Positions 47,081 to 63,927 of a stretch of DNA of 64,000 nucleotides are shown here, one piece after another. Positions within the stretch are counted from its first letter, which is position 1; each line of letters opens with the position of its first letter. The stretch comes from an uncultured cyanobacterium (GTDB lineage Bacteria > Cyanobacteriota > Cyanobacteriia > PCC-6307 > Cyanobiaceae), in the NCBI GenBank assembly GCA_903935205.1, contig CAIZQU010000075.1:1-64000 (forward strand). Direction: 5' to 3'. Under the pieces are notes generated by a model, which was given only the letters and a program-made list of their open reading frames with translations, did not search any database and was not told the DNA's origin. Both the position numbers and the translations under genes were made by a program.

Positions 47081-47179
47081 CTCCTGATCAGATCCAACAC
47101 GTTCCCATCATCCACTCACCAGGCGCTAGGGGCAAGCTGAGCCGGCTCAACCCTCCTCATGCGATCTGGGCATCTCCTC

Positions 47180-47504: not shown

Positions 47505-47638
47505 CGGAGCAGCTGGTGGCGGCTTGCGAGAGGGATAGGGAGCCCCACCAACCAAAGGGTTCCGCCCGTTCGCCCCAGATCCCGTAGGAAGTCTGGATAG
47601 CCTATGGAGCTGCTCTTACCCCGGCAGCCCCCGCTGCC

Positions 47639-47842: not shown

Positions 47843-47859
47843 TCGCAGAAGAAAGGGAC

Positions 47860-48579
47860 TCAGGCCTCCAGGGCCTCTATTCCTTGTGAGCTCCTGGCAT
47901 GGCGCCGCTTGCTGGCCATGGCGAAGGCAGCGGCCGTGTTGCTCGCCGATGCCCATGGGTAGCTCCTGAGATGCACCTCCAGCGAATGCCCCATGCTGTG
48001 GGCCATAGCCCCCGCGTCGATGCCACGGCGGTGGCCCCTCAGGCTGTAGGTGTGGCGGAAGCTGTAGGGAACGAGCCGGCGCTGCTCCACAGCCATCTGA
48101 TCCCTTACCTCCAGCCAGGCCTTTTGCCGGCCCAGGTACGTCCCAAAGGAATCCCTTGCCCCGTTGCCGCTGCGCAGAGGTGGCAGCTGGATCTCCCCCG
48201 CCTGCCAGCGCTCCAGCAACGACCACTCCCGCAGTTGCCCCGAACGGTCCTCCAGGGGCAAGGGGAACACCCGCCTGGCGTCTGTGTCCCCACCCCCGCT
48301 GCGCTTCTGGTATGCGCACCACCCATGCGGCTCACTGATCCGAGAGCACCGGATACGGCCTTGATGCAGTGGGCTTTGGCTCACAGCCACGCCGTTTTCA
48401 CCCACGCTCTTGACTTCGAGCCACTCCACGCCGGGCCATCGGTGAGGGCCAGAGCCCCTATGGGAGTCCCCTGACAGGTGGTCGCGGCGGACGACCCCGC
48501 GCTCGACAAGCTCGACGGCGCGGGAGCGCGATTGGCCTGCAGACCGGCTCAGCCTGGATCCCCTGACGCAGTCCGCCAA
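47860..48579 (-). pseudogene. tyrosine integrase, 5'-truncated
   Basis: The C-terminal catalytic part is clear: PYSFRHTYSLRGHRRGIDAG (Arg and His), MAHSMGHSLEVHLRSYPWAS (second His region and nucleophile Tyr), preceded by the family-typical LLERWQAGEIQLPPLRSGNG and FGTYLGRQKAWLEV. The N-terminal core-binding part and the first catalytic Arg are missing: the frame begins with unrelated sequence and overlaps the 3' end of the neighbouring kinase gene. It marks the right end of the island. Confidence 0.75.
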
Positions 48580-49664
48580 GCGAGAGGCTGATCCTCCAGG
48601 GTGTCAATCGCCAGCTGCAGGGCCCCCTGGCAGGCATCTCCCATCGGGGCAACCAGCCGGGCGGTGGGCAGCAGCTCCTCAACGGCCTGGCGGAACCGTT
48701 CCCCCAACCCCCGCAGGTGCTCCAGGCCGCCGCCCATGGCGCAGACGGCCGGGGCCGGCAAGGCCAGCTGCCGGGCCACAGCGGCCGCCATCAGGGCCAG
48801 GGCCCTGGCGTTGGCGTCCAGGATCGCCGCGGCCTGGGGGTCGCCCTCGGCCGCCAGCTCCGCCACCACCGGCGCCAGCCTGGCGAAGCCCGCCGCCCCG
48901 AAGGCCGGTTCCACCACCAGCGCCTTGATCCGCTGCGGCGCCTCGGCCTCCGTCGTCTCCAGGCCCAGGGCCCGCCAGATCGCCCCCTGCAGCGCCGTGG
49001 CGGCCACCCGGCCATCGGCCATCCGCAGGCTGAGGGCCAGGCCGTCGCGGCCGATGTCCATCGCGGAGCCGGCGCCATCGAGCAGCCAGCCATAGCCGGC
49101 CACCCGCCGCTGCTGGCCCCGTCCGTCGCTGCCTACGCAGATCGTGCCGGTGCCGCAGATCACCACGATGCCCGCACCGCCCGCGAAGGCCCCAGCCAGG
49201 GCGGTGCGTTCATCACCGGTCACGGCCAGCCTGGCCGGCGGCAGCCCCAGGGCCTCGGCCGCCAATTCCAGTCCGCGCTGCTGCACCGCCGTGCCGGCCT
49301 CGATGCCGCTGGCGCCCACCGCCGCCGCCTGCAGGGGCCCGGCCGCCGCCGGCCCCGCCGCCGCCAGGGCCGCCGCCAGGCTGTGGCGCAGGGCCGCCTG
49401 GAAGCGCTCCGGCCCCTCCGCTGCGGCCAGATGGCACACCCCCGGCCCCTCGCCCTCCGCCACGGTGGCGCCGCTGCTCCGCTCCGCCAGGCGGCAGGTG
49501 GTGTGGGTCTGGCCGGCGTCGAACCCGGCCAGCAGCGCCGGTGGGGGCTCCTCGTCCGGCGGCTCCAGCCCGGCCCGCCGCTCCTGGGGCCCGCTGTTCT
49601 GGGGCAGGCGGCCCTGAGGCCGGGGGGCCTCCAGCCGTGGCGGGGGATCGGCAGGTGCTGCCAT
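48549..49664 (-). CDS. BadF/BadG/BcrA/BcrD-type ATPase, GlcNAc kinase-like
   Basis: 371 aa. After a 45-residue Pro/Ala-rich start, the ASKHA phosphate motif GFDAGQTHTTCRL, the second-domain VTGDERTALAGAFAGGAGIVVICGTGT and AGYGWLLDGAGSAMDIGRDG all fit the BadF/BcrA family, which includes N-acetylglucosamine kinases. This suggests recycling of an amino sugar, near glmM before the island inserted. Last of a tight four-gene minus-strand operon (9 bp after ictB). Its 3' end abuts the island. Confidence 0.85.
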   Translation of the reverse strand: MAAPADPPPRLEAPRPQGRLPQNSGPQERRAGLEPPDEEPPPALLAGFDAGQTHTTCRLAERSSGATVAEGEGPGVCHLAAAEGPERFQAALRHSLAAALAAAGPAAAGPLQAAAVGASGIEAGTAVQQRGLELAAEALGLPPARLAVTGDERTALAGAFAGGAGIVVICGTGTICVGSDGRGQQRRVAGYGWLLDGAGSAMDIGRDGLALSLRMADGRVAATALQGAIWRALGLETTEAEAPQRIKALVVEPAFGAAGFARLAPVVAELAAEGDPQAAAILDANARALALMAAAVARQLALPAPAVCAMGGGLEHLRGLGERFRQAVEELLPTARLVAPMGDACQGALQLAIDTLEDQPLAWRTASGDPG

Positions 49665-49673
49665 GGCGATCCC

Positions 49674-51032
49674 TCAGCCCCTCAGGCCGGAACCCTCGGC
49701 TCCATCGAGCTCCGCGATGGGCCGCGGCGGCTCCAGGCGATGGGCCGCCGCCGCCAGGGTGGCCAGGCTGAACAGGGCCACCAGCTGCACCTCCGGCCGG
49801 AAGAAGATCGTGTCGGTCAGACCCTGCACCGCCAGGCCCGCGAACACCGCCACCGCCGCCAGGGCGGGCAGGGCCAGGGAGCCTTCGCCACGCCCCAGCC
49901 GCAGGCCCGTGCGCACCGCCGTGATCAGCACCGCCAGTCCCGCCAGCAGGCCCGGCACCCCGGCCTCCACCAGCAGTTCAAGTGGAATCGAATAGGCGCT
50001 GAGGGCGTTGAACTTGGGCTGTTGGTATAGCGGATAGATCAGGTTGAAGGCGGTGTTGCCCGGTCCGATCCCGAACAAAGGCCGGTCCTGGATCATCGCC
50101 AGCACCGACGTCCAGACGTTGATCCGGAAGTTGTTGGAGCTGTCCTCACGGCCCGCCACCAGGCTCATCACCCGCACCCGCAGAGGCTCCACCTGGGTGA
50201 CCAGCACCACCAGGGCCAGCGCCCCGCCCAGCAGCAGCAGCAGGGGCAGGGTGCGGCGCCAGAAGGCCGGCCAGTGGCGGCTGGCGCGGCCGGCCAGCAG
50301 CAGCGCCAGCACCCCGAGCGATGCCACCATGCCCATCCAGGCGCCGCGGCTGTAGGTCAGCACCAGGGCCACGATGCCCAGCACCAGCGAGCAGAGGGCG
50401 AACAGGCGACGGGGACGCTCCCGCCAGCGCAGCAGTGCCACCACCGCCAGCGGCAGGATCGGCAGCAGGTAGCCCCCCAGCAGGTTGGGGTTGTCGAGGC
50501 TGCTGTAGATCCGCACCGTGCCCGCCGCCACCGAATTGTTGTCCGACCACCGGGCCAGCTGGCTGGCGTCCGCATAGAGCTGGCGGATGCCGATCACGCT
50601 GGTCAGCAGCTCCCCAGCCAGCAGCGCCGCCGTCAGCCGATCCCACCACCGCGGCGACTCGGCCAGCAGCTGACGCATCAGGGCGTAGACGCCCAGATAG
50701 CTGGTGAGTTTGAACAACCCCTTGGCTGCCGCCACCGGCACCGGCGAAAACCCGGTCGCCACCACGGACACGGCCAGCACCGCCAGCAGGGCCAGGTTGA
50801 TCGGCCCGATCCGGCCGGGCGGCGTGCGCAGCGCCCAGAGCACCCAGAGCAGGGCGCAGGCGGCGATCAGCAGGCTGAGGCCGCCGCGGCTCACCTGGGG
50901 CAGCCAGGCCAGCAGGGCCATCAGCACGGCGCCGGAGATCAGGGGCAGCTGCCGCCCGATCGCCCCCGCCGGACCGGCGGCGAGCAGACCCTGCCAGCGC
51001 AGCAGCCAGGGTGTGGGGGCGGAGGTCAGCAC
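49674..51032 (-). CDS. ictB: IctB / O-antigen ligase-family membrane protein
   Basis: 452 aa with about 11 transmembrane helices and one large loop (about 295-345). Wzy/O-antigen-ligase-like motifs: YSSLDNPNLLGGYLLPI, VLTYSRGAWMG and GIGPGNTAFNLIYPLYQ, where the family-typical loop occurs. IctB was first named in inorganic-carbon accumulation, but the fold suggests polysaccharide ligation; the true substrate is unknown. GTG start, 5 bp downstream of trmB. Confidence 0.9.
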   Translation of the reverse strand: MLTSAPTPWLLRWQGLLAAGPAGAIGRQLPLISGAVLMALLAWLPQVSRGGLSLLIAACALLWVLWALRTPPGRIGPINLALLAVLAVSVVATGFSPVPVAAAKGLFKLTSYLGVYALMRQLLAESPRWWDRLTAALLAGELLTSVIGIRQLYADASQLARWSDNNSVAAGTVRIYSSLDNPNLLGGYLLPILPLAVVALLRWRERPRRLFALCSLVLGIVALVLTYSRGAWMGMVASLGVLALLLAGRASRHWPAFWRRTLPLLLLLGGALALVVLVTQVEPLRVRVMSLVAGREDSSNNFRINVWTSVLAMIQDRPLFGIGPGNTAFNLIYPLYQQPKFNALSAYSIPLELLVEAGVPGLLAGLAVLITAVRTGLRLGRGEGSLALPALAAVAVFAGLAVQGLTDTIFFRPEVQLVALFSLATLAAAAHRLEPPRPIAELDGAEGSGLRG

Positions 51033-51037
51033 AACGA

Positions 51038-51742
51038 TCAGCCGCGGGCGGTGTCGGCTGGATTATCGGTGGCCCGCAGCGCCGCTTCCAGGGCTTCGGG
51101 CGAGGGCACGGCCGTGCCGTTGCGTTGATACAACACCCGCAGCACCGGCAGGCCGTGGGTCAGGGCGTAGCGCTCCCGCTCGGTGGGCACCGGCAGCGGA
51201 TTGTCCGCCCGCCAGGGGAGGGCATCGCCAGGGGGCCTGCGGAAGCAGCCGCTGGCCTCGCAGAGGGCCACCATCGGTTCGATCACGGCGGCCACATCGC
51301 TCTGCAGGAACAGCCAGCCCCCCTCCTCCAGGGCCAGGGCGATCGCCCGCAGCAGGGAGGGCTGCAGCACCCGCCGCTTGTGGTGCTTGGTCTTGAACCA
51401 GGGGTCGGGGAACTGGATCGACACCCGCCGCAGCAGCCCCCGGGGCAGCTGCCCCATCCAGCCCTCGAGGCTGACATTGGCATTGCAGAACAGGAAGCGC
51501 AGATTGGTCAGGCCCAGCTCCTGCCGTTCGGCCTCCGCCGCCTCCACCAGGGGCCGGCGGATCTCCACGCCGAGGTGGTTGATCTCCGGCTCCAGGGCCG
51601 CCAGCTCCAGCAAGAAGCGTCCCCGGGCGCTGCCGATGTCGAGGTGGAGCGGCAGATCGGGCTGGGCGAAGCAGTCGGCCGGGGGTGGCAGCGGCCGGGG
51701 CAGCTGGTGAAAGCGGCTGAGTGGATTGACGTGCTGGCGCAC
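51038..51742 (-). CDS. trmB: tRNA (guanine-N7)-methyltransferase
   Basis: 234 aa SAM-dependent enzyme making m7G46 in tRNA. Family features: [16 protein letters not shown] (SAM site, here a variant of D-x-G-x-G), [22 protein letters not shown], and the substrate motif [21 protein letters not shown]. The GTG start [10 protein letters not shown] lies one base after the stop of the FIST gene, so coupling is likely; longer frames are overlapping sequence of that gene. Confidence 0.96.
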
Positions 51743-51743
51743 C

Positions 51744-53000
51744 TCAGTCCTCCGGCACCAGGAAGCCCCAGCTGGCGGTGTAGCCGTGCAGGTGGGTGGC
51801 GCTCCCCACCGGACCGATCTCGCCATTGCAGAAGAAGCCGGCCATCGGCAGCTGGCTGAACCGTTCACGGCAGAGGCTCACATCGCCATCGGGTTGGCCG
51901 TAGAAGCCGCGGCCCCGCCCCAGGCAGGCGAAGAGCAGGGCCGCCAGCGGTTCACCACCCGGCTGCCGCTGCTGCTGCAGCAACAGCTGGCGCGACTCCT
52001 CCCGCGCCGTGGCCGCATCTCGCAGCTGGAACTGGACCTTCTGGCCCACCCGCATCCGTTCCCCCACCGCCACGGCACCGTTGCGGGGATCGACGCCGAT
52101 CAGATTGCGCACCAGAAACGCCGGTGCCGGGGCTTCCGAACCGCTGGATTCGAGGCTGAAATCGCTGCGGGCCACCCCCAGCAGCAGTGAATCCTTCACC
52201 TGCTCCCGTTCGGCCGGGCTGAGGCCGCCCAGCACCGACTGGAGCGCCTGCACCGGGCTGCGCCGCTCCTGGCCGCGGCTCACCTGCAGCACCACATTGC
52301 GCTGGGCCTGCTCCACCTCAAACACCGGTCCGATCGGCCGGCAGCCCTGGGCCAGCACGGGATCCAGCCGCCAGCGGCCGCCGATCACGCAGCCCACGGC
52401 CCCGCCGCAGACCTTGTCGCCCAACAGCAGGGAGCCGTGGGGGGCGCTGTGCTGGCCGGCGATGCCGCCCACCTTCGGGCGTCCGGGGTAGGCGTAATCC
52501 AGACCCCCGACCAGATCGTTGATGGCGCGGCAGCCCGGATCCACCAGCAGCAGCATCCCGCGCATCGACTCCAGATCGACCCCAACCGCCTCCCGCCATG
52601 GTTCTGCAGGTCCGTCCAGGTCCGGCAGCTCCTGGGCCTCGAAATGGAACGGATGCAGCTGGGCCCCTGGAAGGTGCAGCAGGGTCAGGCTCAGGGCCGG
52701 TTCATGTTCCAGTTCGTGGGGGGCGCCATCGGCTCCGGTGCCCACCACGCCGGCACCGACGCACCCAAGCCAGTGCTGGGCCTTCAGGCGCTGTTGCAGC
52801 AGCGGCAGCAGGCGGGGCAGATCGCTGGCATAGCTGGCGGAGGCAAACACCAGGGCCAGGTCGGCTGGACCCACTCCCCCCAGCTGGCGAAACAGAGCCT
52901 CCACGGCTCCCTGCAGGGAGGGGTCGCGGGCGAGGGCTGTGCGGCACCAGGCGGGTCGCTTGCGGCGTGCCAGCCAGGGAAAGGAGGGGATGGCAACCAT
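51744..53000 (-). CDS. FIST-domain sensory protein
   Basis: 418 aa. FIST_N (about 35-230) and FIST_C (about 240-410) domains, thought to bind small ligands in signal transduction. Seen as CRTALARDP and [13 protein letters not shown] in the first, and [32 protein letters not shown] and [14 protein letters not shown] in the second. No kinase domain is attached. First gene of the operon FIST-trmB-ictB-kinase; divergent from DUF3177. Confidence 0.88.
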
Positions 53001-53058
53001 GGCGGGACCCTAGACCCTGACGGGGTGCGGATAATGGCGCCTTACCGAACCCGAGGCC

Positions 53059-53673
53059 GTGCCGGATCCGCTGTTTCGCTCCCTCGTCTGGCTGGACGTG
53101 CGGCTGGGCCTGCTGTTCGCCGTTGGTCTCCCCCTGGTGCTGCTGGTCTGGGCGGTGATCCGTCGGGAGGCAGCGGTGAAGCGCCTGCTCGGCCTCTACT
53201 GGAAGGTGGCCAGCCTGCAGCTGATCGCCCTGCTGCTGCTCACCGATCGACGCGCCCTGGGTCTGGTGCTGCTGGTGCTCGCGCCGCTGCTGATGCTGGC
53301 GGTGCTCTGGCTCTGGCAGGACCTCAACGAGGAGCTGGCCGACATGCCCACCTGGCGGGGCCTGCCCCTGACCGTGCGGATCTGGCGGTGGAGTCTCAGC
53401 TTTTATGCCCTCGGCGCCAGCGCCCTGGCGGCCTCCGCCCTCGCCTGCCTGGGTGGCTCCCTGCAGAGGCCCCTGTGCGCCGTCTGGCTGGAGGCCCCCG
53501 GAGGATTGCACGGCATCGTCGCCCAGCTGTTCGGCTTTGTGTTCGGCGGCCGTTGGACCCAGGGGCTGGCGGGCTTCGTGGGCTTCATCGGCCTGGCGGC
53601 CTACGGCGTGGGGCTGTTGCAGTGGCTGCTGGTGCGCCTGCCCCGCCAGGGTCGGGTGGCCGGGGAGTTCTGA
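53059..53673 (+). CDS. DUF3177 membrane protein
   Basis: 204 aa with about five transmembrane helices (residues 14-34, 50-62, 66-84, 110-130, 165-195). Cyanobacteria-specific DUF3177 features: SLVWLDVRLGLLFAVGLPL at the start and LYWKVASLQLI. GTG start, since no ATG precedes the first helix. Function unknown. Divergent from the FIST gene by 58 bp. Confidence 0.85.
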   Translation: MPDPLFRSLVWLDVRLGLLFAVGLPLVLLVWAVIRREAAVKRLLGLYWKVASLQLIALLLLTDRRALGLVLLVLAPLLMLAVLWLWQDLNEELADMPTWRGLPLTVRIWRWSLSFYALGASALAASALACLGGSLQRPLCAVWLEAPGGLHGIVAQLFGFVFGGRWTQGLAGFVGFIGLAAYGVGLLQWLLVRLPRQGRVAGEF

Positions 53674-53771
53674 AGGAGCAGCGTCCCCAGCGGCTCGCGC
53701 CGCCATGGGCAAGCCCATGGCGGTCCCGATAGGGTCCCCTTTCTCAATGCCCGCCAGCGTTCCGTACCGCC

Positions 53772-54155
53772 ATGGCCGAAGCACCCACCGACCCTGGGGA
53801 GTCGATCGCTGCCCTGCTCCGCCAGCTGGAGGCCCTGAGCCTCCACCATCCCGATCGGGTGCTGCGCCTGCGGGGCACCCTGCCGCCCCCGGTGTCGGCC
53901 GAGCCTGGCTGTGACCAGAAGGGTGAGCCGTTTGAGCTGCTGCTGTTCCGCGGCTTCTCCAGCCTCACCACCCACCCCACCGCCTTCGATCCCGACCGTG
54001 CCGCCCTGCCCGAGGGCAGCGAGCTGATCAGCGCGGAGCTGCTCCAGGGCCCCCTCGACCCGGCGGCGGAGATCGTGCTGGCCGGCCCGGGGCCGGTCCG
54101 CGCCTATCGCTCTGCGGCCTCCTGGAGGGGGCCCGCTGGCCGCGAGCAGGGCTGA
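53772..54155 (+). CDS. conserved cyanobacterial protein, DUF7734-like
   Basis: 127 aa soluble protein. Recognisable conserved run: RVLRLRGTLP, then PFELLLFRGFSSLTTHPTAF-DPDRAALPEGSELISAELLQGPL, characteristic of a small protein family kept in cyanobacteria and plastids. No catalytic motif is visible. The C-terminal 20 residues are Gly/Arg-rich. Confidence 0.75.
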   Translation: MAEAPTDPGESIAALLRQLEALSLHHPDRVLRLRGTLPPPVSAEPGCDQKGEPFELLLFRGFSSLTTHPTAFDPDRAALPEGSELISAELLQGPLDPAAEIVLAGPGPVRAYRSAASWRGPAGREQG

Positions 54156-54487
54156 AGGCCGGGCCAGGGTGGATCCGTTACGAAATCCCAGCCATTTCGG
54201 GCCGCAATTCGACAACTCTGGTTATCATGGCAAGGGATGTCTTTGGTAGAGATTGCTCCAGTGTCAGCCCCCTGGTTCGCTCCACTGTTCATCGGGAACC
54301 TTGACGCCCGAGTCTGATCGCTACCACTGGGATCTGACTGGCCCGTGGTCTGGTTTTCGCCGCTCCTGCCACCCCTGGGCCGATCCCAGCCAGCCGGCCT
54401 GCCCGGCGTCCGGTCTCCAGCGGCTTTGACGATCCCAGCCGGCCTTCCATTGACGCCCCATCACCCTGCCCCGGTCGCTCCCCAGCC
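54156..54487. other. P450 upstream region
   Basis: About 330 bp. A tatcat at 54223 could be a -10 box; two very short frames start just after it (54227 and 54237) but neither is recognised. Nothing else is seen. Confidence 0.4.
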
Positions 54488-56233
54488 ATGGACCAGCTTC
54501 GATGCCTGGCTGTCCTGCCGCACCGGGGAGGCGATCGCTTGCTGGGGAGCGAGCCGCTGCTGCTGCTGCTGCCGCTGGTCGTTGTGGCCCTGCTGCTGTT
54601 GCCGCGCCTGCCCGGTCTGATCCCTGCCCTGGCGCTGCAGCTGGCCCGGGTTCGGGAGCTGGCCAGCCGTCTCTGGCGCCTGCTGCTGGCTCTGCTGGCG
54701 GCCCTGGCCCCGGCCCAGCCACCCCCAGGCGCGACCGCTGCGGATCCGTTGGACCCTTCCGCATCCTGGCCGGGCACCGACCGCCGGGCCCGCTTGCGGC
54801 GCGCCCTGGCCCGGAATCTCACCCCCTACCTGCTGCTGTCGCTGCTGCGCCTGCTGCTGCCGCGCTTCTGGCTGCCTGCGGCCCTCTGGCGCCGCCTGGT
54901 GCATCCGGAAAGCTTCGGCCCTGACTTCCCGATCGGCGGCATGGTCTGGTTGAGCCACAACGCCGATGTGCGTGAGGTGTTGGAGCGGCCCGACTCGTTT
55001 CTGGTGGTCTATGGCCCGCGCATGCGTTCCGTGACCCTGCCGCTCGATCCTCCCCCCGCCGATGACGCCGCCGTGCCCGAGGCGGAGCGGGGCAATTTCC
55101 TGCTGGGCATGCAGGACACACCCCGCTATCTGCGCGACATCTCCAACATGCGCCTCGCCTTCCGCCGCGAGGATGCCCAGCGCTGCGCTCAGCTCGCGGG
55201 TCAGGTCGCCACCGCCGCCTTGGAACGGGCCTGCGCCGAGCGGCGGCTGCAGGATCCGGAGGCGGCGTGGCTGCCGTTCGATCTGCCCGTCGATCTGGTG
55301 CTGCCGGTGGTGGAGAGCCTGATCAACGACTACTTCGGCATTCCCGTGCCGCTGCGCTGTCCAACCGCCGGCCTGGATCAGAACGCTGAGGCCGCTGCCG
55401 CTGCCGTCGGCCCCGCAGGTTCTGCCGATGCCGTGGTCGACGATCAGCAGAGCTGGCTGGCGGTGCTCTTCAACCACCTCTTCTACGACCTCAAGGGCGA
55501 CAGCAGCCTCGACGCCTGCCGCCGCGATGCGCCGCTGGTGCGTGGTGCCCTGCGTCAGATCATCCGCCGCCGTCGCCAGGCCTTCGAGGCCGGCGAGGCC
55601 CCCGAGGCAGACGACGTGCTCAGCCGCTGCCTGCGCCTGCAGCGCTCCGGCACCCCTGGCATGGACGACGAGACCCTGCGGGTGAACTTCACCGGCTTCC
55701 TCGTCGGTGCGATGGCGCCGCTGATCAATGCCTCCTGCCAGGTGCTCGATCTGCTGCTGGAGCGCCCCGAGGCCCTGGCCCTGGCCCAGGATGCCGCCCG
55801 GCGACAGGACCAGCGGCGGCTCAGCGGCTGCGTGATGGAAGCCCTGCGCTTCTCGCCCGGCGATCCGGTGATCTACCGCTGGACCGCCGCGGACACCTGG
55901 CTGGGTGAAGGATCGGGCCGTTGCACGCTGCCGCGGGGAACGCTGGTGATGGCCTGGAACTCCTCGGCCATGTTTGATCCGGCCCTGGTTGAGTCCCCCT
56001 GGCGGTTCCGCCCCGATCGCGAACCGGGCTCCTATCTCCATTGGGGCCTGGGTCAGCACAGCTGTGCCGGCGCCTACATCAACCAAGCCGCCATCCCGGC
56101 CATGCTGGCGCCTCTGCTGCGGATCGAGGGGCTGCGCCGCGCCCCAGGCGATGCGGGCGAGCCCCTCAAAAACGGGCCCGATGGCATCACCATTCGCCAT
56201 CTGCAGCTGCTGATTCCGTCCTCCGCCCGCTGA
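54488..56233 (+). CDS. membrane-anchored cytochrome P450, atypical I-helix
   Basis: 581 aa. N-terminal hydrophobic helix (about 22-47) and a Pro/Ala linker precede a heme domain (about 110-575). The E-x-x-R pair is E451-A-L-R454 and the heme-binding loop is HWGLGQHSC526AGAYIN. The I-helix reads GFLVGAMAPLINASCQV, without the usual A/G-G-x-D/E-T acid-alcohol pair for O2 activation. P450s lacking this pair often act as peroxygenases or on hydroperoxides. No redox partner gene is adjacent. The ATG at 54488 gives a membrane anchor at the N-terminus. Confidence 0.88.
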   Translation: MDQLRCLAVLPHRGGDRLLGSEPLLLLLPLVVVALLLLPRLPGLIPALALQLARVRELASRLWRLLLALLAALAPAQPPPGATAADPLDPSASWPGTDRRARLRRALARNLTPYLLLSLLRLLLPRFWLPAALWRRLVHPESFGPDFPIGGMVWLSHNADVREVLERPDSFLVVYGPRMRSVTLPLDPPPADDAAVPEAERGNFLLGMQDTPRYLRDISNMRLAFRREDAQRCAQLAGQVATAALERACAERRLQDPEAAWLPFDLPVDLVLPVVESLINDYFGIPVPLRCPTAGLDQNAEAAAAAVGPAGSADAVVDDQQSWLAVLFNHLFYDLKGDSSLDACRRDAPLVRGALRQIIRRRRQAFEAGEAPEADDVLSRCLRLQRSGTPGMDDETLRVNFTGFLVGAMAPLINASCQVLDLLLERPEALALAQDAARRQDQRRLSGCVMEALRFSPGDPVIYRWTAADTWLGEGSGRCTLPRGTLVMAWNSSAMFDPALVESPWRFRPDREPGSYLHWGLGQHSCAGAYINQAAIPAMLAPLLRIEGLRRAPGDAGEPLKNGPDGITIRHLQLLIPSSAR

Positions 56234-56363
56234 CGCCGATGGTTCGGAACGCTCGTCACCGATCCGATCCTGGAATCCTGACCGGTGGATACCCAGCCGC
56301 AGGCGCCGGCCGCAAGCTGGCCCCGGTTCTGCACCATCCGGCAGCGCCTTTCCTGTAGCCGCC

Positions 56364-58283
56364 ATGGCCGACGACTACGGCACAAGCCCAGCCAATCCGC
56401 TGCCGATCGAACCTGCGGATCGTCTGCCCCTCAGGGCTGATGTGGTCGATCTGCTGCGCCGGGCCGGGGTGGAGTTCTTCCGCATCCCGATCGCGCCGGA
56501 GGGCGATGCGATGCGGGCCTACTTCCTGTCGCCGGCCTACATCCACTGCCATTTCACCCCGGATTGGATCGCCCAGCAGGGCTCGGCCCTGACCCTGCTG
56601 CAGACCTTCCTGGCCAAGGTCCATCCGGAGGACCGGGACCACATGGCCGGGGTGGCTCGGCTGCTGTTGTTGAGCGAAGGCGACTCCACCGACATCACCA
56701 GCAATCGCTTCCGCGGCGTCTCCGAGACCGGCCAGTGGTGCTGGTACGAAGTGCGGATGAGTGTGCGGCGTGAGGGGGAGCTGCGGATCTGCGAAGGGCT
56801 GATGATCAATGTGGAGGAGCAGCAGGAATCACGCCGCAAGCTCGAGCGGCTCGCCTTCGAAGACCGTCTCACCGGACTGGGCAACCTGACGGCGACCCTG
56901 CGCAGCCTGGAGCGGCTGCTGCCACCTCCCCAGCCGCCCGGCGCCGCTGGGGAGGCCAGCAGCGCCGCTGCCGATTTCGATGCTCGGCCATCGGCCCAGG
57001 AGCAGGGGCCTGGGGCCGATCCCTTCGCGATCATCTGGTTGGATCTGGCCGGCTTCGGGCGGATCAATTCGATGCTGGGCCGGGCCAAGGGGGATGAAAT
57101 CCTGATCCAGACCGCCGCGATCCTGCGCGACTGGATCCAGCCGGGCGATCTCGTCACCCGGCCCAGTTCCGATGAGTTCGTGATCGTGCTGCCCGGCCGC
57201 GACAGCGACGCCGCGATGGCGGCGGCCCGCCACCTGCAGCAATCCCTGCCCGGCCGCATGCAGGGCCTCTGCGATCTGCAGCGGGGTCTGACATTCCAGG
57301 CCGGGATCTGCGCCTATCCCGAGCACGGCGATGACGCCGAGACCCTGCTCAGCTACGCCGCCGCCGCCCTCGACCAGGCGTCCCGCCGCGGCGGCGACAC
57401 CTTGATCCTTTACAGCGGTGCCCTCACCCATGCCGGCCGCGAGATGCTGGCGATCGAGCAGGGGCTGCAGCAGGCCATCGCCGAGGGGCAGCTGCGGCTG
57501 ATGTTTCAGCCCCAGGTGGGGGGGCAGGGGGAGCTGCTCGGCTGTGAGGCGCTGTTGCGCTGGCATAGCCCCGAGCTGGGGCTGGTGTTGCCGGGGCGGT
57601 TCATTCCCCTGGCGGAGCAGACCGGTCAGATCCATGCCATCGGCGCCTGGGTGATCGAGGAGGCCTGCCGTTCCCAGGCCCACTGGCAGCAGCAGGGCCT
57701 GCAGCCTCCGCCGCTGGCGATCAACGTCTCCGCCGTGCAGCTCACCGACGACCGGCTCGGCCTGGCGGCGCACCTGCTGCGCTGCCTGACCCGCTACCGC
57801 CTCGATCCCGCCTGCCTGCATGTGGAGATCACCGAGTCCGGTGCCCTCGAGGAGGGCGGCATCCGCCAGCTGATCGCCATCCACGAGGCCGGCGTGGCCC
57901 TGGAGATCGATGATTTCGGCACCGGCTTCGCCAGCCTCAGCTCCCTGCTGCGCCTGCCGATCCACACCCTCAAGCTCGATCAGAGCTTCGTGCGCGAGAT
58001 GGACAGCTCCGAGGCCTCGGTGGCGATCCTGCGGGCCAGCCTGGCCCTGGCCGGTTCGATCGGTGCCAAAGCCCTGGTGGAGGGGGTGGAGGAGTCGTGG
58101 CAGGCTGAACGGCTGCTCGGCCTGGGCTTCCGCCACTTTCAGGGCTACCTCTTCTGCCAGCCCCTGGAGGCCGGGGCCTACGCCGAGCTGCTGCGCGATC
58201 CCGGTCTCTTCCCTCTGGGGGGCGGGGCCAGCCGTGCGGGGGTTGCCCCTGGCTCCGCCGCCGACCCCGCTTCCGACCAGTGA
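56364..58283 (+). CDS. PAS-GGDEF-EAL protein with degenerate GGDEF
   Basis: 639 aa cytosolic signalling protein. PAS domain about 30-150, GGDEF domain about 160-350, EAL domain about 365-615. The cyclase active-site motif reads S268-S-D-E-F instead of G-G-D/E-E-F, so diguanylate cyclase activity is unlikely. The phosphodiesterase domain keeps CEALLRW (E395-A-L), INVSAVQL, EITES, IDDFGTGFASL and LVEGVEE, so it probably hydrolyses c-di-GMP, perhaps with the GGDEF domain as a GTP sensor. Stop codon lies in a 7-bp repeat. Confidence 0.93.
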   Translation: MADDYGTSPANPLPIEPADRLPLRADVVDLLRRAGVEFFRIPIAPEGDAMRAYFLSPAYIHCHFTPDWIAQQGSALTLLQTFLAKVHPEDRDHMAGVARLLLLSEGDSTDITSNRFRGVSETGQWCWYEVRMSVRREGELRICEGLMINVEEQQESRRKLERLAFEDRLTGLGNLTATLRSLERLLPPPQPPGAAGEASSAAADFDARPSAQEQGPGADPFAIIWLDLAGFGRINSMLGRAKGDEILIQTAAILRDWIQPGDLVTRPSSDEFVIVLPGRDSDAAMAAARHLQQSLPGRMQGLCDLQRGLTFQAGICAYPEHGDDAETLLSYAAAALDQASRRGGDTLILYSGALTHAGREMLAIEQGLQQAIAEGQLRLMFQPQVGGQGELLGCEALLRWHSPELGLVLPGRFIPLAEQTGQIHAIGAWVIEEACRSQAHWQQQGLQPPPLAINVSAVQLTDDRLGLAAHLLRCLTRYRLDPACLHVEITESGALEEGGIRQLIAIHEAGVALEIDDFGTGFASLSSLLRLPIHTLKLDQSFVREMDSSEASVAILRASLALAGSIGAKALVEGVEESWQAERLLGLGFRHFQGYLFCQPLEAGAYAELLRDPGLFPLGGGASRAGVAPGSAADPASDQ

Positions 58284-58329
58284 CCCCTGACCCCTGACCC
58301 CTGACCGCTGACCCCTGACCGCTGACCCA
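58281..58329. repeat. 7-bp tandem repeat (tgacccc), 7 copies
   Basis: Units tgacccc/tgaccgc/tgaccca follow one another; the first unit supplies the stop codon of the EAL gene and the array ends before ileS. A copy-number change would not alter the protein since the first TGA stays in place. Confidence 0.93.
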
Positions 58330-58369
58330 ACGCTGAGCCGAACAGCGATCAGCCCAGGCCCCCCTGGCT

Positions 58370-61300
58370 TCACCCCTCCAGAACCGCCACGCAACGGCCG
58401 CAGAGGGTCGGGTAGGCGGAATGCTGGCCGATGTCGGTTTCGTAGTGCCAGCAGCGCTCGCATTTGCTGCCTTCGGCCCGGGCGATGCGGACGCTGAGGC
58501 CGGCTTCGCTCGCTTCGGCCAGCACCTCCGCCGGCACCTCCCCCCCGTGCCGCAGCTGCGAGACCAGCAGCCAGTCGGCCAGGTTGTCGACCTCCGGCCG
58601 GGGGCTCCGGGCCAGCAGGGCCAGCGCTTCCGCCAGCGGCCGGACCTCCTCGCCCTGGGCCAGCTCCAGCTGCACCTGGGTCTCCAGGGAGGAACCGATC
58701 GCTGCGGCGGAGCCCTGGGGGTGTGCCCCGCCAGCCTGCTGGCGCCTGCAGGCCTCCAGCAGTCGGTTGACCCGCGGCCGCAGCGTCAGCAGCAGCTCGC
58801 GGACGGCCGCATCGCTGGCGCTGCTGTAGGCCCCTTCGCGGCTCGGCCGCCACTCCGGCGGCACCGTGGGCCAGCCCCGCTCAAACACCGAAGCCTCGGC
58901 CACCGGGTAGGGCAGGTTCTGCCAGATGTCCTCGGCCATGTGGCAGAGCACCGGCGCGATCAGGCCTGCCAGACGTTCCACCACCAGGTGGAGCACGGTC
59001 TGGCAGCTGCGGCGGCGGAAGGAGTCGGCCGCGCTCACATAGAGGCGGTCCTTTGCGATGTCGAGGTAGATGTTGGAGAGGTCGACCACGCAGAAGTTCT
59101 GCAGGGCCTGGAAGAAGCGGTAAAACTCAAATCGCTCGAAGTCGGTGCTCACCCCATCGATCAGGTCGGCGGTGCGGGCGAGCATCCAGCGATCGAGCAG
59201 CGGCAGCTCGGCGATCGGCACGGCATCACTGGCCGGATGGAAGTCGTGGAGGTTGCCGAGCAGGTAGCGGGCCGTGTTGCGCACCTTGCGGTAGACATCG
59301 GCCAGCTGCTTGACGATCCCGGGGCCGAGCGGCACATCGGCGGAGTAATCCACCGAGCTCACCCACAGCCGCAGCACATCGGCCCCATAGGCCGGCTCCT
59401 GTTTCTCATTCTTGCCCCCCTCCACCAGCACCGCTGGATCGACGACGTTGCCCAGGGACTTGCTCATCTTGCGGCCCTTCTCATCGAGGACGAAGCCATG
59501 GGTGAGCACCCGCCGATAGGGGGCGGTGCCGTTGACGGCCACCGAGGTGAGCAGGCTGCTCTGGAACCAGCCGCGGTGCTGGTCGGAACCCTCCAGGTAG
59601 AGATCGGCCGGGTAGGCCAGGCGAGTGCCGCCGCCCGCCTCACCGGGGGTGCCGGCAGCGGCGGAGCCCAGCGCGGCCTCGGGCGCGGCCAACGCCCCGT
59701 CGCCAGCCCCCGGGCCGGCGGGGCTGATCCCCCCTCCCTCGCCCGGATGTCCGCTGCGCTCGGGGTCGCCGAGGCCCCCCAACACCCCCGCCCAGGAGGA
59801 GCCGGAGTCGAACCAGACATCCATCGTGTCGGTGCCCTTGCGCCACTGATCGGCCTGGTCGGCATAGGCGGGCGGCAGCAGGCCGGCCTCATCGCGCTCC
59901 CACCAGACATCAGAGCCGTGGGCGCCGATCAGGGCTTCGATGTGGGCCAGGGTGTCCGCGTTGAGCAGCACCTCACCGCTGTGGCGGTGATAGAAGACCG
60001 GGATCGGCACCCCCCAGTTGCGTTGGCGGGAGATGCACCAATCGCCCCGCTCCCGCACCATCGCCTCGATCCGGTTGCGACCGCTGGCCGGCAGCCATTC
60101 CACCTCGGCGATCGCCGCCAGGGCCTGCTCCCGGAAGCCCTCGACCGAGGCGAACCACTGTTCGGTGGCGCGGAAGATCGTGGGTTTCCTGGTGCGCCAG
60201 TCGTAGGGATAGCGGTGTTCGTAGCTCCGCTCCGCCAGCAGGGCGCCGGTGTCGCGCAGGGCGGCCAGGATCGCGCCGTTAGCGTCCTTGAGCACGTTCA
60301 GACCGGCGAAGGGGCCCGCCTCGGCGGTCAGGGTGCCGCCTTCATCCACCGGGCAGAGCACCGGCAGCCCGTGCTTGCGGCCGGTGTTGAAGTCGTCGAC
60401 GCCATGGCCGGGGGCGGTGTGCACCAGGCCGGTGCCCGATTCGGTGGTCACGTAGTCGCCACCCACCAGCACCGGACCGGTGCGATCGAGCAGGGGGTGG
60501 CGGTAGATCACGCCCGCCAGCGCTTCGCCCTTCACCTGCAGCAGCGGCGTCAGGGGCCTCTCCAGCACGGCGGCCAGGCTGTCGATCAGGGCGGCGGCCA
60601 CCACCAGGTAGCGGGGCGCCCTGTCGGGGCTGCCACCATCGCGGCAGATCGCGTAGTCGAGGGAGCCATTCACGGCCACCGCCAGGTTGGCCGGCAGGGT
60701 CCAGGGGGTGGTGGTCCAGATCGCCACGAACAGCTGCTCGCGGTGGTCGGTGTCGGTCGGTCCTTCGATGCCGTGGGGGCGCAGGGCGCCGGCCAGGGCG
60801 GAGGGCAGCTCCAGCACCGGGAAGGCCACGTAGGCGCTGGGGGAGGTATGGCCGTCGGGGTACTCCAGCTCCGCCTCCGCCAGGGCGGTGCGGGAGCTGG
60901 GACTCCAGTGGACGGGCTTGAGGCCGCGATAGATGTGCCCGGCCAGGGCCATCCGCCCGAACACCCCGATCTGGGCGGCCTCGTAGCTGGGTTTGAGGGT
61001 GAGGTAAGGGCTGTCCCAGTCGGCCCAGATGCCCCAGCGACGGAAGCCCCGTCGCTGACCCTCCACCTGCTCCAGTGCATAGCTATGGGCCCGGCGCCGC
61101 AGGGCCAGGGGCGTCAGCCCACGCCGTTCGTCGCTGCTGAGCCCCTGCAGCACCTTCAGTTCGATCGGCAGGCCATGGCAGTCCCAGCCGGGCACGAACC
61201 GGGCCCGCCGCCCCTGAAGCAGGGCGTGCTTGTTGATGATGTCCTTGAGGATCTTGTTGAGGGCGTGGCCCACGTGCAGGGCCCCGTTGGCATAGGGGGG

Positions 61301-61480
61301 GCCGTCATGCAGGGTGAAGACCTCTCCGGGGTTGGCGCCGCTGAGGCGCTCGTAGACGCCGGTGCTGGCCCAGAAGGCCTGGATCTCAGGTTCCCGCACC
61401 CGGGCGTTGGCCCGCATCTGGAAGGGGGTCTCCAGCAGGTTCAGGGTGTCCTTGTAGGAGGCCGGGCCGGCGGCGGTCAC
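58370..61480 (-). CDS. ileS: isoleucyl-tRNA synthetase
   Basis: 1036 aa class I synthetase. HIGH-type motif in GPPYANGALHVGHALNKILK (about residue 61), editing-domain WTTTPWTLPANLA and TAPGHGVDDF, KMSKS loop GRKMSKSLGNVVDP, anticodon-binding helices, and a C-terminal zinc site CERCWHYETDIG...CGRC. A Gly/Ala/Pro-rich insert of about 45 residues lies between the DSGSSWAGVL and YPADLYLEGSDQHRGWFQSS segments, accounting for the extra length. GTG start. Confidence 0.98.
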   Translation of the reverse strand: MTAAGPASYKDTLNLLETPFQMRANARVREPEIQAFWASTGVYERLSGANPGEVFTLHDGPPYANGALHVGHALNKILKDIINKHALLQGRRARFVPGWDCHGLPIELKVLQGLSSDERRGLTPLALRRRAHSYALEQVEGQRRGFRRWGIWADWDSPYLTLKPSYEAAQIGVFGRMALAGHIYRGLKPVHWSPSSRTALAEAELEYPDGHTSPSAYVAFPVLELPSALAGALRPHGIEGPTDTDHREQLFVAIWTTTPWTLPANLAVAVNGSLDYAICRDGGSPDRAPRYLVVAAALIDSLAAVLERPLTPLLQVKGEALAGVIYRHPLLDRTGPVLVGGDYVTTESGTGLVHTAPGHGVDDFNTGRKHGLPVLCPVDEGGTLTAEAGPFAGLNVLKDANGAILAALRDTGALLAERSYEHRYPYDWRTRKPTIFRATEQWFASVEGFREQALAAIAEVEWLPASGRNRIEAMVRERGDWCISRQRNWGVPIPVFYHRHSGEVLLNADTLAHIEALIGAHGSDVWWERDEAGLLPPAYADQADQWRKGTDTMDVWFDSGSSWAGVLGGLGDPERSGHPGEGGGISPAGPGAGDGALAAPEAALGSAAAGTPGEAGGGTRLAYPADLYLEGSDQHRGWFQSSLLTSVAVNGTAPYRRVLTHGFVLDEKGRKMSKSLGNVVDPAVLVEGGKNEKQEPAYGADVLRLWVSSVDYSADVPLGPGIVKQLADVYRKVRNTARYLLGNLHDFHPASDAVPIAELPLLDRWMLARTADLIDGVSTDFERFEFYRFFQALQNFCVVDLSNIYLDIAKDRLYVSAADSFRRRSCQTVLHLVVERLAGLIAPVLCHMAEDIWQNLPYPVAEASVFERGWPTVPPEWRPSREGAYSSASDAAVRELLLTLRPRVNRLLEACRRQQAGGAHPQGSAAAIGSSLETQVQLELAQGEEVRPLAEALALLARSPRPEVDNLADWLLVSQLRHGGEVPAEVLAEASEAGLSVRIARAEGSKCERCWHYETDIGQHSAYPTLCGRCVAVLEG

Positions 61481-61542
61481 AGCGGCGGTGGCGGGAAGGG
61501 GGATTATCCCGTCCGGCCGGCCGCGGGCGAAGCGGCCTGCCT

Positions 61543-62439
61543 TCAGGGCAGGGTCGGCGGCGGCTCGAGGCCGTTCTCCGGCATGGCCGCTGGGGGTTCC
61601 TCGCCGTCGGCCGGCGCTGGCGCCTCGTCGGCGCGGTCGTGGGGGGGCCGGTGATCGGCCACGTCCGCGACCTGCTCGGAAAAGCGCTCGATGCTCCCCG
61701 CGGCGCCCTCGGGGGCGCCATCGCCGTCGTCGTCGTCGTCGCCGTTGCTGTCCGCGGCGGCTACGGCGGTCACCGCGGCGCTGTCAGCGCCGGCGGCGGT
61801 GGCCGGTTCGCTGGCGGCGCCAACCCCGGCGGCGGCGCTGCCGCCGATCGCCCCGGTGCCTGGCACCGTCGCAGGGTCTGGGGCCTGGGCTGGCCCTGCC
61901 GTGGCGGTAGAAGGGGCCTGGGGCGTGGAGCTGGCTGGCTCGGCGCTGGGGGCCGGCTCAGGCCGCACCCAGCGCTTGCTCCGGCCCCGGCTGCCGCCGG
62001 CCGTGGCCCTGGGGGCGGCGGCAGCGCCGCCGGCAGGGGCTGTGCCGCTGCGGGCCCGACCGAGGCGATCGCCGAGGTTGGCGGCCAGCGATCCCAGCTG
62101 CTGTCCGGCCTGCGCCAGGGTGGCGCCGAGCTGGCTAAAGCTGGTGGACCAGCGCTCCGTCGAGCCGAGCCGTTGGCGTTCCTCATCGCTGAGCTGGCGC
62201 CAGCGGCCCAGCCCCACCTCCACCCCCAGGCGGCCGATCAGCAGGGCGGCGCAGACCACCCCGAGCATCGGGGCGCCGCTGAGCCGGTCGGCGCTGGTCA
62301 CCAGCACCAGGCCCAGGAGCAGCACCAGGGCCCCCCAGGCGGAATCCCGCGGACGGCTGAGCTCGGTGGCCAGCAGCGGCAGGAGCAGCACCGCCAGTCC
62401 CAGCGGCAGGGCAAGCAGTCCTCCCAGGGTTGCGACCAT
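61543..62439 (-). CDS. Ycf66-family membrane protein
   Basis: 298 aa. N-terminal membrane part with two to three helices (about 1-80) resembles the picocyanobacterial Ycf66 family (LLPLLATELSRPRDSAWGA, LVLVTSADRLSGAPMLGV, WRQLSDEERQRLGS). The remainder is a Gly/Ala/Pro/Ser-rich disordered tail with acidic DDDDDGDG. Ycf66 is an uncharacterised thylakoid-associated protein. ATG at 62439 is chosen because it starts the first helix; the upstream frame is antisense to the tRNA. Located between ileS and tRNA-Leu. Confidence 0.75.
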   Translation of the reverse strand: MVATLGGLLALPLGLAVLLLPLLATELSRPRDSAWGALVLLLGLVLVTSADRLSGAPMLGVVCAALLIGRLGVEVGLGRWRQLSDEERQRLGSTERWSTSFSQLGATLAQAGQQLGSLAANLGDRLGRARSGTAPAGGAAAAPRATAGGSRGRSKRWVRPEPAPSAEPASSTPQAPSTATAGPAQAPDPATVPGTGAIGGSAAAGVGAASEPATAAGADSAAVTAVAAADSNGDDDDDGDGAPEGAAGSIERFSEQVADVADHRPPHDRADEAPAPADGEEPPAAMPENGLEPPPTLP

Positions 62440-62509
62440 GCCGGATCGGCGCCGGATCGGCGCGGATGAATGGCCTTCATTCTGCGCTTTCTGCCTAAAA
62501 TCGAGGCAC

Positions 62510-62591
62510 GCCCACCTGGCGGAATTGGTAGACGCGCTGGGTTTAGGTTCCAGTGGCTCAGGTCGTGGGGGTTCAAGTCCCCCGGTGGGCA
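62510..62591 (+). tRNA. tRNA-Leu (anticodon TAG)
   Basis: 82-nt class II tRNA. Acceptor GCCCACC/GGTGGGC, D arm with AATTGGTAGAC, anticodon stem CTGGG/TCCAG around loop TTTAGGT (anticodon UAG), a long variable arm, T arm GGGGG-TTCAAGT-CCCCC, discriminator A. CCA is not encoded. A taaaat at 62495-62500 could be its -10 box, 9 bp before the tRNA. Confidence 0.96.
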
Positions 62592-62874
62592 TGGTTTGCA
62601 AGTGTTTGCTTGGCCTGGTTATCCAGCCCGCCGCTGGGCCTGGGTCGCAGGCCCGCCGGTGGACACGGCCAGGGCGTGAGGCGATGCCGCTTCGGCCAGG
62701 TCCCCCGCGGGCCCCGTGCCTGTCTGCGGTCCCCACGGCCAGCCATCCCCCCGGGCCCGCCAGGGGGACGCCACCAGCCCGGGGCCATGGCCGGGGCCGA
62801 ACCCTCCCCGTCGCGGGCCTGCCCACCACTCCTTAGGGTGGTGTCCCTTCGGCGACACGGCCCCGTTTCAGGAG

Positions 62875-63927
62875 ATGTCCCAGGCCCTGACACGCATGCG
62901 GGTCCCGCCCACCGCCGCCATCGGCGCTGCCTCCAGGGAGCGCCAGATCGCTCCCCTGCGCTCGGTTCCCAAGGAGTTTCTCGATCCCCCACCCCCCTGG
63001 AACCCGACGGTGGTTCTTTTCCTGGGGGGCTATGGCCTGGCCGGCCTGACGATCTGGGGCTGGTTTGGCGCCGGCTGGCCCCTGCCCCTGCTGCTGCTGC
63101 TCGGCTTCCTGGCCCTGCACCTGGAGGGCACGGTCATCCACGATGCCTGCCACAACGCCGCCCATCCCAACCGGCTGATCAATGCCGCCATGGGTCATGG
63201 GGCAGCCCTGTTGCTGGGGTTCAGTTTCCCGGTCTTCACGCGGGTGCATCTGCAGCACCATGCCCATGTCAACGACCCCAAGCACGATCCAGACCACATC
63301 GTCAGCACCTTCGGGCCGCTGTGGTTGATCGCGCCGCGCTTCTTCTACCACGAAGTTTTTTTCTTTCGCCGTCGCCTCTGGCGGGGTCATGAGTTGATCG
63401 AATGGGCCCTGGCCAGGGCTGTGTTCATTGGCATTGTTGTCATTGCTGCCCGCCATGATTTCCTGCCCTTTATTTTCAACTGTTGGTTCGCCCCGGCCCT
63501 GATGGTTGGCGTGACCCTGGGATTGTTCTTTGATTACTTACCCCATCGCCCCTTCCATTCCCGCAACCGTTGGCATAACGCTCGCGTTTATCCTGGCCGG
63601 CTGATGAATTGGCTGATCATGGGGCAGAATTATCATTTGATTCATCATCTCTGGCCGTCGATTCCCTGGTTTGAATACCGGCCCGCTTACCACGCCACCC
63701 GCCACATCCTCACCGCAAAAGGCTCACCCCAGCGGCTTGGTCTTTTCGAGAGTCGCCGCGATGGTCTGAACTTTCTCTACGACATCTTTCTTGGTGTCCG
63801 CAGCCACAAGCTGCAGCGCAGTCGCCTTCGTCCGATCGCAGCCCTGATGCCCACCCGCCACGCTCGCCGTCGCGTGCTCGAACTTCTGCACCGCACGGCC
63901 GTCTCGCCCCGCCGAGCCGGCACCTGA
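62875..63927 (+). CDS. crtR: beta-carotene hydroxylase
   Basis: 350 aa diiron membrane hydroxylase of the desaturase superfamily that makes zeaxanthin. Histidine boxes: H-D-A-C-H-N (GTVIHDACHNAAHPNRL), FTRVHLQHHAHVND, YLPHRPFH, and GQNYHLIHHLWPSIPWF. About four membrane segments. The start VPKEFLDPPPPWNPTVVLF is typical of CrtR. ATG at 62875 follows GGAG closely; ATG at 62896 is an alternative. Unlike the C-terminal half of other members, the last 40 residues are Arg-rich. Nothing is resolved after it. Confidence 0.95.
   Translation: MSQALTRMRVPPTAAIGAASRERQIAPLRSVPKEFLDPPPPWNPTVVLFLGGYGLAGLTIWGWFGAGWPLPLLLLLGFLALHLEGTVIHDACHNAAHPNRLINAAMGHGAALLLGFSFPVFTRVHLQHHAHVNDPKHDPDHIVSTFGPLWLIAPRFFYHEVFFFRRRLWRGHELIEWALARAVFIGIVVIAARHDFLPFIFNCWFAPALMVGVTLGLFFDYLPHRPFHSRNRWHNARVYPGRLMNWLIMGQNYHLIHHLWPSIPWFEYRPAYHATRHILTAKGSPQRLGLFESRRDGLNFLYDIFLGVRSHKLQRSRLRPIAALMPTRHARRRVLELLHRTAVSPRRAGT

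Follow-up and report, generated by a model that had tools for sequence, protein, structure and literature searches.

The locus described here raises the question of how a cytochrome P450 works once it has lost the pair of residues that serves the usual protonation of iron-bound dioxygen (O2). The gene lies in a 64,000-nucleotide stretch of DNA from an uncultured cyanobacterium of the family Cyanobiaceae (positions 1 to 64,000 of contig CAIZQU010000075.1, called C75 here, in assembly GCA_903935205.1), and this whole stretch is referred to as the window. The P450 gene occupies 54488..56233 on the + strand and was recognized by its open reading frame, its Pfam p450 match, and its relatives; it encodes a protein of 581 residues with an N-terminal hydrophobic anchor. 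The answer that we favor, at a probability of roughly 55%, is that this P450 is the membrane-anchored subunit of a four-component heme system and takes a ready-made O–O bond in place of O2 and a reductase. The components would be a protein that we call HFARW, a membrane protein that we call HFAR2 (both names were coined in this analysis), a dye-decolorizing-type (DyP-type) peroxidase, and the P450 itself.

The P450 and its I-helix

The P450 frame starts with ATG, and its residues 345-545 match PF00067 at 36.1 bits against a cut-off of 22.8, the sole match to this family in the 3.82-Mb genome. A P450 from genome G255 (locus L026) is 65% identical to it in the alignment of P450s (A3) and 64% identical over residues 99-576 in the search of relatives, with the similarity to L026 starting at residue 35 of the window protein. 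The first-pass annotation had called the heme-Cys loop and the E-x-x-R motif intact, and both are. The loop, WGLGQHSCAG with Cys526 (residues 519-528; 56042..56071, + strand), fits the pattern F/W-G-x-G-x-H/R-x-C-x-G, and its G, H, C, and G are invariant in A3, as are the E and R of the motif EALR (residues 451-454; 55838..55849, + strand). Together with the Pfam match, these place the protein in the P450 superfamily. PWRF is found at residues 504-507. Toward the N-terminus, residues 23-41 (PLLLLLPLVVVALLLLPRL; 54554..54610, + strand) have a mean Kyte-Doolittle value of 2.47 over 19 residues and form a probable membrane anchor. An antisense frame of 634 residues (54461-56365) overlies the whole gene, but it is ruled out as a true gene by the homology of the + frame, whose guanine-plus-cytosine content by codon position (0.77/0.51/0.85) is consistent with coding.

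The I-helix segment is GFLVGAMAPLINAS (G403-FLVGAMAPLINAS-416; residues 403-416, 55694..55735, + strand). It aligns gap-free to GLLVGSVETTSQA and similar segments of relatives, and in this register Asp251-Thr252 of P450cam correspond to Ala410-Pro411, so the Asp/Glu251-Thr252 of O2 monooxygenases is absent and the earlier claim of a missing acid–alcohol pair is confirmed. That claim would have fallen had the alignment placed the conserved Thr elsewhere. The closest Thr and Ser, T402 and S416, are both out of register, and a frameshift or misregister of the helix is ruled out since the segment is gap-free in all 39 P450 rows.

The loss extends well beyond the window. The acid at position 251 is absent in 15 of 15 P450s of a group linked to DyP-type peroxidases, the window's included, whereas Asp or Glu is present in all 24 P450s outside that group; the pattern is more than chance, and in these sequences acid loss is a trait of the DyP-linked lineage. 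The counts combine 36 rows of a first tree (15 from the group and 21 others) with three lipoxygenase-linked rows added in a second, and they contain near-copies (L013/L055/L061, L010/L060, and L012/L052). Of the rows called "DyP-linked," 13 have the DyP adjacent or fused, and the other two (the window and L029) have one in the same genome. The residues at 251-252 are Pro-Thr in three fusion proteins and in the P450s of one sub-lineage, type B; Pro-Gln in Skermanella; and Ala-, Leu-, or Thr-Pro in the window's own sub-lineage and G312. This means that in the window's sub-lineage, which has neither acid nor alcohol, the pair for the usual protonation of iron-bound O2 is gone.

In the first tree, from which L065 (a fragment) and L054 (the same gene as L059) were omitted, the whole 15-row group forms one side of a branch with support of 95/88. 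The second tree was built with the I-helix columns removed and also without the long rows L056, L057, and L069. The window P450 sits in a 10-row subset of the group supported at 100/100 in the first tree and 99/99 in the second. Acid loss and DyP linkage coincide on the tree, with one change in the first and two when the I-helix columns are left out.

The four-component gene set

The full operon, in the order HFARW-HFAR2-DyP-P450-GGDEF/EAL, is found in five genomes (G255, G174, G312, G506, and G509), and two more (G310 and G313) have the first four genes without the GGDEF/EAL gene. In these seven cyanobacterial genomes, neighboring frames either overlap or are separated by no more than 179 bp, which leaves no space for a reductase gene between them. 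The same order is kept in L009 until it is cut by the contig end. This last contig (CAJXNF010000081.1) carries the label "uncultured proteobacterium," yet both its P450 and its DyP fall inside the cyanobacterial set, and it may be a mis-binned contig or a transfer. Apart from L009, the closest relatives of the window P450 come from the same genus and family (G255, G174, G312, G310, G313, G319, G506, and G509).

The remoter relatives are plasmid P450s of Skermanella, Novosphingobium, Pararhizobium, and Sulfitobacter, and in these the genes are joined in other ways. On three alphaproteobacterial plasmids, of Novosphingobium, Pararhizobium, and Sulfitobacter, the P450, HFARW, and DyP are parts of a single polypeptide of about 1420-1620 residues, where hidden Markov model (HMM) matches locate all three; between the P450 and HFARW is a stretch containing hydrophobic sequence that resembles HFAR2 by eye, without an HMM match. 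On two Skermanella plasmids, a single protein combines HFAR2 and HFARW, with the DyP and then the P450 after it. The scanned DyPs of P450-linked sets have DyP_N and/or Dyp_perox_C, and their catalytic motifs are intact by motif scan (the distal Arg of the L026 protein, in RRMLRRG, was located by eye).

The two HFAR proteins are families without a Pfam or NCBIfam match. HFARW has about 220 residues and the motif I-H-F-A-R-W followed by S-N-F-x-G-T-W (alignment A1), while HFAR2 has 330-400 residues, the motif T-H-F-A-R, and one or two hydrophobic segments (alignment A2). The two profiles are similar (hhalign probability 84, E 7.7e-6). Ten HFAR proteins gave no Pfam match better than E 0.05, four that were scanned gave none in NCBIfam, and comparison with solved structures gave nothing convincing (best E 0.22). 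The idea that they are DyP-like domains was dropped, as there is no profile similarity between them and DyP. A structure prediction for HFARW had a mean predicted local distance difference test score of 40.2, too low for use.

The association holds across the family. In 400 genomes, the P450 clade (profile A3, E < 1e-140; next best 1e-70) and HFARW (profile A1, E < 1e-80; next best 4e-24) occur in the same nine genomes and neither occurs in any other (Fisher p = 1.5e-18, kinship ignored). A tenth genome, G317, has only an operon remnant (L065:3571-6314), in which fragments of HFARW and P450 share one frame; the GGDEF-EAL gene after them matches along its length. In G316 there is a divergent HFAR-DyP-catalase-like set and no P450 match at 1e-15. 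Operon, fusion, and strict co-occurrence within the family thus link the four components.

Within the open-licence literature searched, none of the papers listed for DyP with P450 or for DyP with lipid hydroperoxides concerned an operon or fusion of this sort, and the main text of a survey of cyanobacterial P450s (PMC7014017) has no word beginning "peroxid"; to that extent the four-part system is apparently undescribed. A role in anti-phage defense was also considered and is unsupported: of five proteins compared with PADLOC, none gave a match. In three of three genomes, a thioesterase-family gene adjoins the type B P450 on the opposite strand (L029:6833-7528, L030:8783-9262, and L031:6131-6736); the one in L029 matches 4HBT_2, and those in L030 and L031 were assigned by similarity.

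A split set in the window's genome

The window's genome is one of two among the nine (the other is G319) in which the P450 and the HFARW-HFAR2-DyP genes are kept on different contigs. In G255 (L026) the order is a DUF7734 counterpart, HFARW, HFAR2, DyP, P450, and GGDEF-EAL. In the window, the DUF7734 gene (53772..54155, + strand, by Pfam and locus comparison) is followed by the P450 and then by the GGDEF-EAL gene (56364..58283, + strand, 639 residues, by Pfam and motifs), and the three genes in between are absent. No clear remnant of HFARW-HFAR2-DyP, or of DyP by itself, was found upstream of the P450 in 54100-54900 (best E 0.52).

The missing genes are on contig C144 (L039:8443-12075). The DyP there (L039:8443-10068) matches DyP_N, Dyp_perox_C, and TIGR01413, the last at 86.6 bits and so below the NCBIfam cut-off of 100.5. 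It has the GXXDG motif (as GFTDG), the proximal His, and the distal Arg, and its nearest solved chain is 8re3. In the DyP tree it groups with G319, G310, and G313 (99/98), and in the P450 tree the window P450 groups with G255 (93/87). The organism therefore seems, from these two trees, to combine a P450 of type A with a DyP of type B, and a quick HFARW tree agrees weakly (83) with a mixed origin of the set. Such a mixture could have arisen if two sets had each lost one part, or by replacement. The C144 set may also be on a mis-binned contig; the contamination estimate is 0.28%. The window's P450 and the C144 DyP module probably still act together. Immediately downstream of the C144 DyP set is a gene for a caspase-domain protein (Peptidase_C14; L039:6248-8266, - strand).

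The first-pass annotation had also stated that no redox partner is nearby. This holds for both contigs, since C75 and C144 have no match to Fer2 (PF00111) or NAD_binding_1 (PF00175), though a partner set of another kind, HFARW-HFAR2-DyP, is present on C144. Elsewhere in the genome there are seven Fer2 matches and one NAD_binding_1 match.

Related P450s and DyP loci with other partners

The nearest P450s outside the DyP-linked group form a branch of 14, each with a partner gene adjoining or one gene away. Five adjoin An_peroxidase proteins, all five of which have the cyclooxygenase (COX)-type Tyr-His motif YRWH. Four are near lipoxygenase-like proteins (Pfam was checked for L035, and the other three were found with the L035 profile). 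The remaining five are near RoxA-like di-heme proteins, with a regulator gene between in three Methylobacterium records; here the assignment rests on Pfam for L013, for L059, and for the partial frame in L032/G298, and on profile and annotation for the other two. The 10S-dioxygenase and diol synthase of Pseudomonas aeruginosa belong to the same di-heme superfamily, with the signature PYLHNGSV (PMC4496055), and the L013 protein shows this motif. The P450s of the neighboring branch are thus found close to kinds of enzyme that are known to produce fatty-acid hydroperoxides. No match to HFARW, HFAR2, or DyP was found in these loci. Six of the 14 loci, those on annotated plasmids (L013, L052, L053, L055, L059, and L061), were scanned for a ferredoxin or reductase, and neither is annotated within about 6 kb; in L033 a flavin adenine dinucleotide (FAD)-dependent oxidoreductase is about 0.9 kb from the P450.

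Position 251 in this branch is Glu in 13 P450s and Asp in one, and Thr252 is present in 12 of the 14. All 14 of these hydroperoxide-near P450s thus keep the acid, and loss of the acid–alcohol pair is no marker of hydroperoxide-linked P450s here. Three of the lipoxygenase-linked P450s are cyanobacterial (L072:7274-8998, L073:6923-8767, and L074:6603-8378), and in L072 and L074 three repeats of a KIALKADTGKYVARC-like unit precede the P450 domain.

The DyP-HFAR pair is itself wider than the P450 system. Fourteen HFAR-DyP plasmid loci were examined, of 82 records. Four have an adjoining catalase-family protein (L047, L048, L076, and L077), two have a fused P450 (L043 and L044), and eight have neither (L051 among these being unannotated). 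In L048, L076, and L077 the catalase-family locus is beside an oleate hydratase, and the three look like copies of one mobile block in different alphaproteobacteria. The block has genes for oleate hydratase, 3-hydroxyacyl-CoA dehydrogenase, thioesterase, a TetR regulator, a catalase-family protein, a short HFAR-like protein, and DyP, and transposase genes are close by. On a Methylorubrum plasmid, L047:743-6716 is a row of genes for a ferredoxin, an FAD oxidoreductase, a P450, a catalase-family protein, a short HFAR-like protein, and a DyP.

How the P450 might work

In the proposed mechanism, the P450 would accept a pre-formed O–O bond instead of activating O2 with reductase-supplied electrons. 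The oxidant would most likely be an organic (lipid) hydroperoxide, with H2O2 less likely, because the neighboring branch is tied to probable makers of lipid hydroperoxides and because the P450 and HFAR2 are predicted to be membrane-bound. At the membrane, the P450 may rearrange or cleave the hydroperoxide or oxygenate a hydrophobic substrate with it, and the DyP-HFAR module may make, hold, or dispose of the peroxide. Use of peroxides or hydroperoxides had been proposed at the outset from the I-helix. It remains the best-supported reading, but the support has moved: the I-helix argument by itself is insufficient, given the acid in all 14 hydroperoxide-near P450s, and it is the context of operons, fusions, DyP co-occurrence, and the partners of the nearest outside P450s that makes peroxide use the most likely reading.

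Several observations weigh against this proposal. Retention of the acid near probable hydroperoxide-making enzymes means that its loss is not required for such chemistry. With only one or two changes on the tree, the correlation between acid loss and DyP rests on few events, and when the I-helix columns are removed, the DyP-linked P450s form one side of a branch in only 38% of bootstrap trees. HFAR-DyP loci without an annotated P450 nearby, such as L042, L045, L046, and L049 (in Rhizobium, Sinorhizobium, and Granulicella), indicate that the P450 is not obligatory for the module. The L047 P450, which belongs to another branch, stands in a DyP row and keeps Glu-Thr, so a DyP-HFAR neighbor by itself does not predict acid loss, and counted by neighborhood the score becomes 15 of 16. 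Lack of its own redox chain may be a better correlate of acid loss than a DyP neighbor, on this one case; L047 leaves the odds for the proposal as they were, its P450 being of a different branch and having a ferredoxin and an FAD oxidoreductase of its own. In the window's genome, the DyP and the P450 are on different contigs and come from different sub-lineages. In a quick HFAR2 tree the C144 row clusters with type A rows (86), even though the row closest to it by path is of type B, and this tree and the DyP tree thus disagree on where the whole C144 set comes from. The general ferredoxins and the NAD_binding_1 protein of the genome also make O2 turnover with a general electron supply possible. 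Finally, H2O2 is normally consumed by DyPs, and we know of no DyP that makes lipid hydroperoxides.

Three other explanations have to be set beside this one. The P450 could be an H2O2-dependent peroxygenase like those of family CYP152, with the DyP sharing or limiting the H2O2 pool. DyPs are a family of H2O2 users, and the motifs of the DyP partner are intact. Also, Pro stands at the position of Thr252, as in the Arg-Pro of CYP152 (PMC5818669 and PMC5377825). However, the substrate-binding Arg is replaced by Ala410, no CYP152 is named among the best 60 of 585 matches to solved structures, and a competing DyP would be odd as a constant partner, so we regard this explanation as unlikely. The next possibility is an ordinary O2 monooxygenase with an unusual I-helix, fed by a general ferredoxin, in which the substrate or an ordered water relays protons. 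Some O2-dependent P450s, for example P450eryF, lack the Thr, but here it is the acid itself that is gone, replaced by Pro, Ala, Leu, or Thr in 15 of 15 members of the group. The acid kept in neighboring P450s, the known bacterial hydroxylases among the nearest solved chains (again the best 60 of 585), the seven Fer2 matches and one NAD_binding_1 match, and the L047 P450 with its own ferredoxin and FAD oxidoreductase in a DyP row all speak for a monooxygenase. The seven cyanobacterial operons without space for a reductase gene, contigs C75 and C144 without Fer2 or NAD_binding_1, and the constant DyP partner speak against it, and it seems quite unlikely.

The split set invites a further explanation, which is that the window P450 is a decaying orphan that lost its own HFARW-HFAR2-DyP and no longer works with the DyP on C144. 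The three genes gone between DUF7734 and the P450, the mismatch of a type B DyP with a type A P450, and the operon remnant of G317 (L065) would all agree with decay. But the frame runs uninterrupted for 581 codons and every heme motif is intact, G319 likewise keeps both halves on separate contigs, and at the thresholds used neither the P450 clade nor HFARW is found without the other in any of the 400 genomes, which makes decay very improbable.

What the system would mean

A bolder form of the favored proposal is that HFARW-HFAR2-DyP is a new membrane-bound lipid dioxygenase or hydroperoxide generator and that the acid-less P450 is its dedicated partner for converting the hydroperoxide. We consider this form doubtful, but if it were true, these bacteria would have an oxylipin-like pathway, and this P450 lineage would have a fourth unrelated partner that makes O–O bonds, after the COX-type, lipoxygenase, and RoxA-like enzymes. 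In cyanobacteria, a probable cyclic di-GMP phosphodiesterase would then share an operon with this pathway. The GGDEF-EAL protein is likely to be such a phosphodiesterase, since its EAL motif is intact and its GGDEF motif is degenerate (SSDEF in the window); the same is true of the copies in the window, in the five operons, and in G317.

The I-helix residues of related P450s make up a natural series of Glu-Thr, Pro-Thr, Pro-Gln, and x-Pro that is tied to a change of partner, and with it the question of how a P450 gives up O2 activation becomes testable. Peroxide-using P450s are scarce and are sought because they need no reductase. For the DyP peroxidases, whose natural substrates are to our knowledge mostly unknown, a constant HFAR-DyP companion would give a defined biochemical context. 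The analysis also flags HFARW and HFAR2 as two protein families.

Another gene of the window

At 43589-47080 on the - strand of the window is a gene for a 1163-residue protein with, by eye, a DUF4062-like start, a nucleoside triphosphatase middle, repeats, and an end like a formylglycine enzyme. It looks like a STAND-type signaling or defense protein.

Comparison with known systems

In the CYP152 peroxygenases (P450 BS-beta, SP-alpha, and OleT), Arg-Pro replaces the acid–alcohol pair (PMC5818669 and PMC5377825), and the Arg at 251 binds the carboxylate of the substrate. The window P450 is similar in that the pair is replaced and Pro is at the Thr252 position, but it differs in having Ala410 where CYP152 has the Arg. 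The plant CYP74 enzymes (allene oxide synthase and hydroperoxide lyase) are comparable in that the window P450, too, may consume a hydroperoxide made beforehand and need no reductase, and Asn321 of plant allene oxide synthase (PMC13049297) has a possible counterpart in Asn414 of the window P450's I-helix. Close kinship with either family has no support, as neither CYP74 nor CYP152 is named among the best 60 of 585 solved matches of the P450 profile, which include erythromycin C-12 hydroxylase and mycinamicin IV hydroxylase/epoxidase. CYP74 also has an insertion in the Cys loop, whereas the loop of the window P450 is of ordinary length.

The fungal dioxygenase–P450 fusions (linoleate diol, allene oxide, and epoxyalcohol synthases) resemble the present system in arrangement, since a peroxide-handling heme enzyme is coupled to a P450 and, in some cases here as well, fused to it. 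Both have H-x-C in the Cys pocket (PMC13049297). The difference is in the partner, which in the fungi is a COX-like dioxygenase with a Tyr radical and here is a DyP with two HFAR proteins; no An_peroxidase-type match was found in 46001-64000 of the window. The P450s of the neighboring branch are the closest outside the window's group and also have one oxidizing enzyme adjoining or one gene away, but they keep the acid and mostly Thr252, and their partner is a probable dioxygenase instead of a DyP. The C144 partner resembles DyP-type peroxidases in its domains, GFTDG, proximal His, and distal Arg, and differs from them in scoring below the NCBIfam cut-off and in its link to HFAR proteins and a P450. 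It is to the DyP-linked group that the window P450 belongs, with both DyP and HFARW present in its genome, on C144.

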